DNA of 60,755 nucleotides, from positions 1 to 60,755 of the forward strand of contig JACWAJ010000065.1 in assembly GCA_014874355.1 (NCBI GenBank), written 5' to 3'. Source of the DNA: a bacterium (GTDB taxonomy: Bacteria; Chloroflexota; Dormibacteria; Aeolococcales; Aeolococcaceae). This document shows positions 3,956 through 56,530 of the stretch, one piece after another. Position 1 is the stretch's first letter. Every line of letters begins with the position of its first letter. The notes under the pieces are model-generated. The model did not search any database. It was not told the DNA's origin and worked only from the letters and a program-made list of their open reading frames with translations. The position numbers were made by a program, and so were the translations under genes.

Positions 3956-5176
3956 TCATGCCCTAGATACGGCTGCTTGGGTTGTGGGTGAGTGATTCCC
4001 GAGGACAGGCACCGTGAGCATCTGTGTGCTCGCCTCTTCGGCCAGCAACGCCGCTCTGTCGGTGCGTTCCCAGGGGAGATCCAGGTCGCTGCGTCCGAAG
4101 TGACCGAAAGCTGCCACCTGCTGGTAGATCGGTCGGCGCAGTTCGAGCGCGCCGATGATTCCGGCCGGCGAAAGATCGAAGTGGCGGTCGACGAGCCGGA
4201 CGATTTCCGACACAGGGATGGTTTCGGTGCCGAAGGTTTCGACGAAGATCGAAATCGGCTTGACCACGCCGATGGCGTAGGCGAGTTGAATCTCACACTT
4301 GGTGGCGAGCCCCGCGGCAACGAGGTTCTTGGCCACCCATCTCGCGCCATAGGCCGCGCTGCGGTCGACTTTGGTCGGATCCTTGCCGCTGAAAGCGCCG
4401 CCGCCGTGGCGGGCATAGCCGCCGTAGGTGTCGACGATGATCTTGCGGCCGGTGAGCCCGGCATCGCCTTGCGGGCCGCCCACGACAAATCGACCGGTGG
4501 GGTTCACGTAGCGTCGGGTCTGCGCATCGAGCCACTCGGCGGGGATGACCTCGTCGACGACATGCTTCTGGACGTCGTCGAAGATTTGCTCTGGAGAGAC
4601 GTCTTCAGAGTGCTGCACGGAAATCAGAATGGTGTCGACACGCAGCGGTCGTCCGAGGTCGTCGTATTCCACGGTGACCTGGGTCTTGCCGTCGGGCCGG
4701 GCCCAGCGCAAGATGCTCCGGCGCCGCTGCTGGCTGAGGCGTTGCGCCAGCCGGTGTGCCAGTTGGATCGGGGCCGGCATCAGTTCGGGGGTTTCGTCAC
4801 AGGCGAATCCGAACATCATTCCCTGGTCGCCGGCTCCGCCCCGGTTGACTCCCACTGCGATGTCGGGGGACTGCTCATCGATGCAGACGAGCACGCCGCA
4901 GGTTTCGTAGTCAAAGCCGTACTTGGCGCGCGTGTAGCCCACGTCGCGGATGGTCTTACGGACGATCCCCGGCACGTCTACGTAGGCGTCGGTCGAGATC
5001 TCTCCGAAAATGAGCGCGGTGCCGGTTGTCAGCGCCGTTTCACACGCGACGCGCCCGAGTGGATCCTTTTCGAGAACGGCGTCGAGGACGGCGTCTGAGA
5101 TCTGGTCGGCGATCTTGTCGGGATGACCCTCGGTCACCGATTCCGACGTGAAGATACGGCGGTCGTGAGATGCCAT
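3956..5176 (-). CDS. metK: S-adenosylmethionine synthetase
   Basis: [53 protein letters not shown]. Confidence 0.97.
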
Positions 5177-6985: not shown

Positions 6986-8542
6986 CTAAGTCGGGAATAC
7001 TCCGTGGTGGCGTGCGATATTTGCGCGGTGGCGCGAGGCATACATGCCGAGCCTTTTCACCAGCTCTTCCCGCAGTTCGGTCGGCGGCACCACCGCGTCG
7101 ACGACCATCTCCGAAGCCAGGTGGAAGATGTCGATGTCTTCGCGATATTCGTCCTGGAGTTGGCGAACGTAAGCCTCGCGTTCTGCCTCGGGCAACTCTT
7201 GAATCTTGTTGTAGTAGACGGCGTTGATTGCGGCTTCGGGGCCCATCACGGCGATCTGCGCCAAGGGCAGGGCCAGTGTGCAGTCGGGCTCGAAGGCGGG
7301 ACCACTCATGGCGTACAGGCCGGCTCCATACGCCTTGCGCAGGATGACGCAGATCCTGGGGACACCTGCCTGCGCCAACGCGGAGATCATCTTGGCGCCG
7401 TGGCGGATGATGCCCTGCCGTTCCACCGCCGTGCCGATCATGAAGCCGGGAACGTCGGCCAGCCACACCAGCGGGATGTTGAACGCATCGCAGCACATCA
7501 CAAACCTGGTTGCCTTGTCGGCGGAGTCGACGAAGAGGACGCCGCCCTTGAAGCGTGGCTGTGACGCCACGATGCCGACTGTACGGCCGTCGATTCGGGC
7601 AAGTCCCGTGACCAGTTCGCGCGCGAACAGTCGCTTGATCTCGAAGAACGAATCCGCATCGATCAGCCCCGCGACAATCTTCATGACGTCATAGCCTCGG
7701 GCCGGCTCGGGGGGGATGACGCTTTCGATGTGGTCAGAGTCCGCTGGGGGAACGGGTGTCGCCGGCGGCGGGGTCTCCTGCCAGTTGGCGGGCATGTATC
7801 CGAGGTACTGTCGTGCCGAATTGATGGCTGCTTCCTCGTCTGGGACGAGGACATCGCCGCAGCCGCTCACCGAGCAGTGCATTCGCGCGCCGCCCATCTC
7901 CTCGAGGCTGACCTTCTCACCGACGACGACCTCCGCCATGCGGGGTGAGCCGAGGTACATCGAGGCATTGCCCTCGACCATGATGACGACGTCGCAGAAC
8001 GAGGGGATGTAGGCACCACCTGCCGCTGACGGCCCGAAGAGCACGCAAACCTGCGGCACCTGTCCGGACAGCCGGACCTGCATGTGGAAGATCCGGCCGG
8101 CATGGCGACGTCCGGGGAACATCGCCACCTGATCGGTGATGCGCGCTCCCGCCGAGTCGACTAGGTAGACGAGGGGGATCTGCAAGCGCTCCGCGGTCTC
8201 CTGGATGCGTACGATCTTCTCAACACAACGTGCCCCCCACGAACCCGCCTTGACGGTGGGGTCGTTGGCCATAACCGCGCAGGGCCGGTTGTGGAGAATT
8301 CCGATGCCGGTGACGACGCCGTCGGCGGGCAGGTCGGGGGCGCCGGAATTCGCGAGCAGGCCGTCTTCAACGAAAGCCGTGCCAGTGTCGAAGAGGCGCG
8401 TGATGCGTTCGCGTACCTCGAACTTGTGCTGTTCTAGGAGCTTGGCCCTGGCCTTGGCGGAGCCGCCGGCGCGCGCACGATCAAGGCGTGTGGCCACCTC
8501 GGCGGCATCATGGCTTGGGATCGGCGGTTTGGAATGGGTCAC
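6986..8542 (-). CDS. Acyl-CoA carboxylase beta (carboxyltransferase) subunit
   Basis: VDSAGARITDQ, GPSAAGGAYIPSFCD, GVLFVDSADKATRFVMCCDAFNIPLVWLADVPGFMIG; GTG start 8542 proposed (ORF opens at 8581). Confidence 0.93.
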   Translation of the reverse strand: MTHSKPPIPSHDAAEVATRLDRARAGGSAKARAKLLEQHKFEVRERITRLFDTGTAFVEDGLLANSGAPDLPADGVVTGIGILHNRPCAVMANDPTVKAGSWGARCVEKIVRIQETAERLQIPLVYLVDSAGARITDQVAMFPGRRHAGRIFHMQVRLSGQVPQVCVLFGPSAAGGAYIPSFCDVVIMVEGNASMYLGSPRMAEVVVGEKVSLEEMGGARMHCSVSGCGDVLVPDEEAAINSARQYLGYMPANWQETPPPATPVPPADSDHIESVIPPEPARGYDVMKIVAGLIDADSFFEIKRLFARELVTGLARIDGRTVGIVASQPRFKGGVLFVDSADKATRFVMCCDAFNIPLVWLADVPGFMIGTAVERQGIIRHGAKMISALAQAGVPRICVILRKAYGAGLYAMSGPAFEPDCTLALPLAQIAVMGPEAAINAVYYNKIQELPEAEREAYVRQLQDEYREDIDIFHLASEMVVDAVVPPTELREELVKRLGMYASRHRANIARHHGVFPT

Positions 8543-54431: not shown

Positions 54432-54805
54432 GGGGGCGTATGGTTTCGACGGGGTCGTGGGTCACACGATGGCGAACCGAGCCCCGGGCTCGTAAAACCG
54501 GGAAAAATATAAGTGCGGATAGAACTGCACTTCCTATGGCTGCCTAACAGCACCTAGGAAATACGCCCAGGGCAATGCTCTGGCGTCGACCGCTCTCTCG
54601 ACTGCGGGGGGCGGAGCCGACGTTAATACCAGTGGTCTTGCCGCTCGGTGGCGCTTCAGCGCCGGGCGGGACATTCACTGAGGCTGGCCGGAGCGGAGCC
54701 TGGTCCCAGGGCGCCACGCCGGTGAGATCAATACCGGGACTACGTTCGTAGATGTCGTGCGGAACGCGGCTTCGGACCCGGGTTCGATACCCGGCGCCTC
54801 CACCA
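54432..54805 (+). ncRNA. ssrA: tmRNA
   Basis: GGGGGCG...CGCCTCCACCA acceptor, GGTTCGATACCC T-arm; tag reading frame GCG GAT AGA ACT GCA CTT CCT ATG GCT GCC TAA. Confidence 0.96.
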
Positions 54806-54870: not shown

Positions 54871-55134
54871 ATGAAGATCATGAAGATACGACGATCGGGC
54901 AACAGCAACGTGGTGGCACTGCCGCACGATCTGGAGCAATTGGGCTACGCCCCAGGTGTCTCCGTCCTTGTCGATGCACTGCCTGATGGCGAACTTCGCA
55001 TCATCCCCGCGACACATCTCAGGGAACTAATCTGTGAGACAGGGAGACGTGTGATCGCCGAGAACCGGGAGGCACTGGACATCCTTGCGGAGCACGACCG
55101 TGGAGCCGGATCCGCTGTCGCTCAGGCCCAGTAG
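54871..55134 (+). CDS. AbrB/MazE-type antitoxin-like protein
   Basis: MKIRRSGNSNVVALPHDLEQLGYAPGVSVLVDALPDGELRI swapped-hairpin fold. Confidence 0.75.
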   Translation: MKIMKIRRSGNSNVVALPHDLEQLGYAPGVSVLVDALPDGELRIIPATHLRELICETGRRVIAENREALDILAEHDRGAGSAVAQAQ

Positions 55135-55396: not shown

Positions 55397-55543
55397 GGAT
55401 GCCGCCAAGGACAAGGTGTCGAGCTACATGCGCAACAACATGTGGTCGAACTGGGCGGAGGCCCACAGCCAGGCGGGCATTCTGGAGGCGCTCGCCGCCG
55501 ATGCGGGCGGGAGTCGCGCGTTCGGCGCTTTCTCGGTCGTGCG

Positions 55544-55945
55544 GTGGTGGCGGGTGGAACGGTCACGGGGAACTGCCTCTATCCGAACAAGGCGTATGTG
55601 GTGGTTGTCACCGCGGCTACGGCTGCTTTCCTGACGGTGGGCGTCGTCAGCCCGGATACGGTCGGCATCGCGTCGGCTGCCGTGGGGCCGTGCACCGCTA
55701 CTGTGCACAACCCGGATGGCACCAGCCAGGACTTCACCACTCCGGCGGGGCAGGAGGATCGGTCTCTCACCCTGGGGGCGGTCAAACACAACCCGGCGCT
55801 GGGCAACGTTTTCGTCTTCTCGGCCACCGCGTTTGTCGAGACCGAGGATCCGGAGTCCGGCGCATTGCTCGATGCGGGGTGCCATGTCACCACCGCAAAC
55901 AGTCCGGCTACGCAAAGTGCCGCTGCTCCCGCCCAGCCTGCGTAG
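55544..55945 (+). CDS. Possible secreted hypothetical protein
   Basis: Hydrophobic signal-like AYVVVVTAATAAFLTVGVV then VGPCTATVHNPDGTSQDF...AGCHVTTANS, two Cys. Confidence 0.5.
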   Translation: MVAGGTVTGNCLYPNKAYVVVVTAATAAFLTVGVVSPDTVGIASAAVGPCTATVHNPDGTSQDFTTPAGQEDRSLTLGAVKHNPALGNVFVFSATAFVETEDPESGALLDAGCHVTTANSPATQSAAAPAQPA

Positions 55946-55991
55946 CGGAGATTTCGTCGGTGCTGCTCGATCTGCCTCCGTTGACGGCGGG

Positions 55992-56096
55992 TCATTTACT
56001 TGGGCCTCGTCCGTGGCCGCCGTGCATGCCGCGCATCATTAGAACCATCATCACCGGGCATGCCAAGCTGATGAGAACTGGCCACAGGGCTTGCAT
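55992..56096 (-). CDS. 34-aa Met/His-rich membrane micropeptide (not in ORF track)
   Basis: MQALWPVLISLACPVMMVLMMRGMHGGHGRGPSK*; strong AGGAGG RBS 8 nt upstream of ATG. Confidence 0.7.
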   Translation of the reverse strand: MQALWPVLISLACPVMMVLMMRGMHGGHGRGPSK

Positions 56097-56147
56097 TGTT
56101 GTCACCTCCTGAGGGGGAGACGTCGGTGTTTCCCCGCCCCGCACTAT

Positions 56148-56164
56148 ATACCCCCATGGGGTAT
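56148..56164. promoter_or_regulatory. CsoR-like operator ATACCCC-CAT-GGGGTAT
   Basis: Perfect 7+7 palindrome overlapping a minus-strand -10-like TATAGT, upstream of the micropeptide. Confidence 0.6.
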
Positions 56165-56218: not shown

Positions 56219-56530
56219 TCAGGTCGGGTGGTTCGAGAGTTGGAGCAGAGCGTCGAAGTCATCGCTTGCCGATGCCTTGTTCCGCTTCTTCAAGCCGCAC
56301 CGAGTGCAGCGGTGGAGAATCGTGTATTCCCCGCCCTTGGTTTCGACCCCTACGGGTTCCATCTGCCCCTGGCAGGTTGCCTGACGATCGCCAGGATTCA
56401 CGTCGACATGTTTACTCCAGAGGCAATGGGAGCAGTGGTTGGTGTACCCGCTTCCCTTCACCTGGAGACCACACCGCTCGCATGTGAAGTCCTCTTTGGT
56501 CCGTTGGAATCGCTTTGTGTCGATGCTCAT
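56219..56530 (-). CDS. RNHCP domain zinc-ribbon protein
   Basis: KRFQRTKEDFTCERCGLQVKGSGYTNHCSHCLWSKHVDVNPGDR...RCTRCGLKKRNKA. Confidence 0.88.
   Translation of the reverse strand: MSIDTKRFQRTKEDFTCERCGLQVKGSGYTNHCSHCLWSKHVDVNPGDRQATCQGQMEPVGVETKGGEYTILHRCTRCGLKKRNKASASDDFDALLQLSNHPT

Follow-up and report, generated by a model that had tools for sequence, protein, structure and literature searches.

A 34-aa DUF2933 membrane peptide below a CsoR-type operator: a candidate copper-responsive unit in a Chloroflexota genome

In the window, that is, the whole 60,755-nt stretch of DNA analyzed herein, a short minus-strand unit very probably encodes a copper-induced copper-handling peptide. Regulation of the peptide, through a palindrome that would act as a repressing CsoR operator, is strongly supported by the sequence, and we infer the biochemical function. 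Overall, we consider it probable that the unit is repressed by CsoR and released by Cu(I), and that its product, a 34-aa membrane peptide of the DUF2933 family, binds Cu(I) and either buffers the ion for a permease encoded elsewhere or passes it on to that permease. The features of the unit are as follows.

56148..56164, no strand: CsoR-type operator, type 2, ATACCCCCATGGGGTAT (ATACCCC-CAT-GGGGTAT), exact match
56143..56148, minus strand: -10 box TATAGT, from the sequence, abutting the right half of the operator with one base in common
56105..56110, minus strand: Shine-Dalgarno sequence AGGAGG, from the sequence, 8 nt before the ATG at 56096
55992..56096, minus strand: 34-aa peptide MQALWPVLISLACPVMMVLMMRGMHGGHGRGPSK, DUF2933 (PF11666), from the Pfam match, the shared core motif and helix prediction
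55579..55995, minus strand: 138-aa ORF of doubtful status, a possible second gene of the unit, with an ATGA overlap with the stop of the peptide

The operator is a perfect ATACCCC-N3-GGGGTAT palindrome, in which a TAC-X9-GTA dyad flanks the G tracts. An earlier note on this DNA had described an overlap between the palindrome and a minus-strand TATAGT, and the coordinates bear this out (56148-56164 versus 56143-56148, one shared base). Its reading of AGGAGG-N8-ATG followed by a 34-aa peptide was likewise correct, with the Shine-Dalgarno sequence at 56105-56110, the ATG at 56096, and the end of the peptide at 55992. Over the promoter, the minus strand reads ATACCCCATGGGGGTAT-ATAGTG ... TCAGGAGG-TGACAACA-ATG, and a promoter sequence search recognized no -35 box upstream of TATAGT. 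In Streptomyces, type 2 CsoR operators have the consensus ATATACCCCTNAGGGGTATAT and obey the TAC-X9-GTA rule (PMC3902906). The dyad, the C/G tracts and the TA flanks are present at both sites of the genome studied here, whereas the predicted site of the peptide has the spacer CAT instead of T-N-A.

When up to one mismatch was allowed in the 17-bp pattern, 0.01 matches were expected per shuffled window and one was found, which was exact; for a 15-bp form with two mismatches allowed, 1.19 matches were expected in the window, which is not significant. Across the genome (1.45 Mb, Chloroflexota, 98.8% complete, 76 contigs), the exact 17-bp operator occurred in two copies, versus 0.0005 expected from an order-3 Markov model fitted to the genome, and the reversed control pattern with up to one mismatch gave no match. 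A search with two mismatches returned 23 genome matches versus 52 for the reversed control, indicating no signal; 17-bp sites were therefore accepted as operators only when exact or with a single mismatch. One exact copy lies before the peptide and the other before a permease-csoR operon, and the search for other copies proposed in the earlier note thus yielded exactly one more. That a coincidental palindrome happens to precede a hydrophobic non-gene, as the shortness and the neutral codon-usage score of the ORF would allow, is extremely improbable in view of the expected number of exact operators per genome, the significant DUF2933 score of the peptide and the copper linkage of its homologues.

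A search for csoR homologues revealed a single CsoR-family gene in the genome (PF02583, 81.7 bits, C53:24902-25141), and it is this gene's own operon that carries the only other exact operator. When the protein was aligned with the solved copper CsoRs 4m1p and 4adz, both RYC, which holds the ligand Cys, and HxxxC were conserved, identifying it by sequence as a Cu(I)-type CsoR with a Cys-His-Cys copper triad. The non-copper members of the CsoR family (RcnR, FrmR and CstR) were ruled out as the identity of the sensor, since Cys-His-Cys is preserved in the protein, which matches CsoR structures and RicR best. Its score with the RicR model, however, is 64 bits versus a cut-off of 175.

The second exact operator, ACTATACCCCTCAGGGGTATAGTGACAGTGTGATCGGG, stands directly before the permease gene, which begins ~1.3 kb upstream of csoR; the whole unit spans G000:C53:23495-25141 (L011 6496-8157). 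There, too, a -10 box TATAGT abuts the operator, and the two promoters have nearly the same operator/-10 layout. With a likely GTG start just after the -10 box, the permease-csoR transcript may be leaderless. The permease combines ArsP_1 (E 4e-56) with a weak C-terminal YHS domain below the Pfam cut-off. It is related to the SO_0444 Cu/Zn efflux family, a member of which is copper-induced in Nitratiruptor (PMC10092412). However, its match to the exporter model NF033936 (71.5 bits, E 6.7e-20) falls well short of the 300-bit equivalog cut-off, and it differs from that family in carrying the C-terminal YHS domain.

Across the class, 110 genomes were searched for ATACCCC-N3-GGGGTAT with at most one mismatch, which gave 68 sites, versus 9 for the reversed control. 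In some operator loci, for example L102-L106, csoR lies directly at the operator, and in 25 of the 29 operator loci other than the window the ArsP_1-YHS permease was present within the fetched stretch. The excess of sites and the recurrence of the permease make it very probable that the operator is genuinely regulatory in the class, with the permease as its main target.

In the genome studied here, the detectable CsoR regulon consists of two predicted units, permease-csoR and the peptide. No HMA domain was matched at E <= 0.001 in the whole genome and no P-type ATPase was found above the cut-off, so that copper defense in this assembly (98.8% complete, in 76 contigs) seems to be reduced to CsoR, the permease and the peptide. 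A further copper gene might conceivably have fallen into a gap between the contigs, and a sub-threshold, apparently truncated P-type ATPase-like ORF is located at C51:47445-47726 (L013).

The arrangement can be compared with that of RicR in Mycobacterium tuberculosis, a CsoR paralogue controlling MymT, the socAB small ORFs and the permease Rv2963 (PMC10141476, PMC10470581). In both cases a CsoR-type repressor stands over very small proteins, encoded as separate units, together with a permease, and the absence of the window peptide from ORF lists recalls that of socAB from the reference annotation. Where gene lists impose a minimum length, such members of copper regulons are missed. The likeness concerns organization, with five loci there versus two sites and a single CsoR here. 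MymT is a cytosolic metallothionein, whereas the window peptide, a membrane helix, has a single Cys and not the several of a small soluble Cu metallothionein of the MymT type. Nor does it have the HMA domain of a CopZ-type chaperone, its sole domain match being DUF2933.

The match of the peptide to the Pfam DUF2933 model scores 33.5 bits versus a gathering threshold of 21 (E 4.7e-8), and no NCBIfam model matches it. Positions 21-48 of the 52 in the model are covered; a match to the whole model is typical of the long members of the family and is not demanded by the cut-off. Because a close relative (G019) also matches only positions 23-48, the partial match lowers the completeness of the peptide and not its membership. 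The Pfam match therefore places the peptide not as an orphan but as a very short member of DUF2933.

Ten members, including the window peptide, were aligned on CP and share A-C-P-L-M-M-x-L-M-M-R-G-M-H-G-G-H, in which C, P, M(+4), L, M, M and G are invariant. As in other DUF2933 proteins, the CP-x-M-M-x-L-M-M core of the peptide is followed by a Gly/His-rich stretch. The earlier note had pointed out a membrane segment with CP and MM and a His/Met/Gly tail, in agreement with what we found: one predicted transmembrane helix bears C13-P14-x-M-M-x-x-M-M and is followed by the tail GMHGGHGRGPSK. AlphaFold2 placed the helix at residues 4-26 (mean pLDDT 75), and hydropathy reaches 2.16 over residues 3-21. 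According to the positive-inside rule, the positive charges at the C-terminal end indicate that the tail is most likely on the cytoplasmic side.

The reading frame also appears in the ORF list, as a 50-aa version that uses an in-frame upstream GTG at 56144. This start falls within the -10 box, so the 50-aa version was rejected, and translation likely begins with the ATG at 56096. A tblastn search of plasmids with the 34-aa peptide, which is a short query, gave no match. Judged by its sequence, the peptide is a genuine, easily missed small gene and an unusually short member of a known, uncharacterized family.

The closest relatives are 75-93 aa long and have a C-terminal helical tail, which the window peptide does not have; the first hydrophobic segment of long DUF2933 members is also missing from it. 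When a profile of the relatives' tail was run on the three frames downstream, nothing was found. Loss of the tail by frameshift was rejected on this ground, and the LE/LR-like spacing with which the 138-aa ORF opens was put down to chance. The difference in length could nevertheless mark a decaying remnant, a DUF2933 gene that has lost its tail and its operon and has kept its promoter by chance, and the small genome, the flanking ORFs of doubtful coding quality and the truncated P-type ATPase-like ORF elsewhere would suit such a history. Decay is quite unlikely, however, given that the operator, the -10 box and the Shine-Dalgarno sequence are intact, that all invariant core residues are kept, and that no trace of a lost tail is seen downstream in any frame.

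The earlier note had regarded the peptide as standalone. It does have its own operator, but the 138-aa ORF overlaps its stop (ATGA) and its homologues elsewhere lie inside copA-csoR operons, so that this claim stood only in part. The 138-aa ORF has no Pfam domain and a weak coding signal, and it was rejected as a real conserved gene because no convincing homologue was found in 61 genomes. Its stop/start overlap with the peptide, as well as the basic stretch and the hydrophobic segment at its beginning, could mean that the palindrome regulates this ORF and that the peptide is only a translation-coupling leader. Set against its poor coding signal and its want of a domain or a convincing homologue, and against the membership of the peptide itself in a copper-associated family, this is very unlikely.

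The earlier note had let its case depend on conservation of the peptide in relatives, and such conservation was found in the form of DUF2933 homologues, many of them in copper operons. They occur in the same bacterial family, other Chloroflexota, assemblies of Actinomycetes and Thermoleophilia, and Alicyclobacillus. The distribution is patchy (Pfam detects the family in 5 of 110 genomes of the class, and a profile built from close relatives in 8 of 110), indicating an accessory family. In G019, which belongs to the same bacterial family, the operator, a P-type ATPase, the peptide and csoR follow one another in one direction (L067). In a UBA5177 Chloroflexi assembly (G149, L061/L121), the peptide lies within a csoR-copA cluster, and ~90 nt before its start there is an operator-like site of its own, TACCGGCCGGGGGTA; similar sites precede csoR and two further genes. 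The order in one Actinomycetes locus (L119) is csoR-copA-peptide; in another (L120), the peptide is opposite csoR-copA, with the operator-like palindrome CTACCCCACCCTACCTGGGGTGGGGTAG between them. By sequence reading, a multicopper-oxidase-like protein adjoins the peptide in Alicyclobacillus (L118), and a BlaI/CopY-like regulator and an M56-like peptidase adjoin it in G089. A P-type ATPase was present in the fetched stretch at 12 of 30 DUF2933 loci, although the query does not prove copper specificity. Copper-gene neighborhoods are thus shared among the relatives, whereas the window peptide is not adjacent to copA and is linked to copper genes through the shared operator only.

Copper and silver resistance loci with DUF2933 proteins are known from many bacteria. 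Published gene tables give the order copA-cupredoxin-DUF2933 in Alteromonas and others (PMC8478169), and DUF2933 is described beside pcoG in a passage on a Salmonella copper island (PMC12582456). The literature passages on copper loci that name the family describe no function for it.

On the 9-kb contig L061, five CsoR-like sites were noted (167-181, 282-296, 4691-4705, 7735-7749 and 7872-7886). Two of them are of the diverged type TACCCCGCCCCGGTA, and the operators of this lineage seem to follow a dialect of their own.

In the mechanism that we propose, CsoR, encoded elsewhere beside the ArsP_1-YHS permease, would bind the palindrome at the -10 box and block transcription. Cu(I) bound to the Cys-His-Cys site of CsoR would release the repressor and lead to induction. 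The induced product would be translated as the 34-aa one-pass DUF2933 peptide and inserted into the membrane, where Cys13, Met16/17, Met20/21 and Met24, spaced about one turn apart on the helix, would bind Cu(I) together with the His/Met/Gly tail. The peptide would then most likely buffer Cu(I) for the co-regulated permease or hand Cu(I) to it.

A CsoR-regulated peptide could instead regulate or stabilize a membrane transporter, the permease here and CopA elsewhere, with no copper binding at all. One-helix size is also seen in other pump modulators, homologues adjoin transporter genes, and the C-terminal helical tail of many relatives suggests protein-protein contact. Nevertheless, the window copy does not have this tail helix, and most of the residues invariant across the ten sequences are Cys or Met, both of them Cu(I) ligands; we therefore regard a purely modulatory role as rather unlikely. 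Copper handling by the peptide remains the preferred reading.

A stronger version of it, which we put forward tentatively as a possibility with the odds against it, is that the peptide and the ArsP_1-YHS permease make up the entire CsoR regulon and that the peptide, embedded in the membrane, supplies the permease as a Cu(I) chaperone or subunit of minimal size. If true, this would give DUF2933 a function and define a two-part copper export without a P-type ATPase. In a genome poor in copper genes, this 34-aa member has its own CsoR operator and has retained just the helix and the His/Met/Gly tail; it hints at what the working core of DUF2933 may be and offers a very small test object for the function of the family.

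Around the unit, an RNHCP-domain protein (PF12647, 103.9 bits) is encoded at 56219-56530 on the minus strand, directly upstream of the copper-type promoter and on the same strand. A 167-aa ORF without a Pfam match (55442-55945, plus strand) is antisense to the 138-aa ORF. Farther away, a tmRNA gene with the tag ADRTALPMAA (54432-54805, plus strand) is followed by a region of ~2 kb in which the coding quality of the ORFs is doubtful and which is possibly an integration hot spot. One of the ORFs near it, of 87 aa (54871-55134, plus strand), has a weak likeness to MazE/AbrB-type antitoxins, scoring 14.2 bits against a Pfam cut-off of 24.7.
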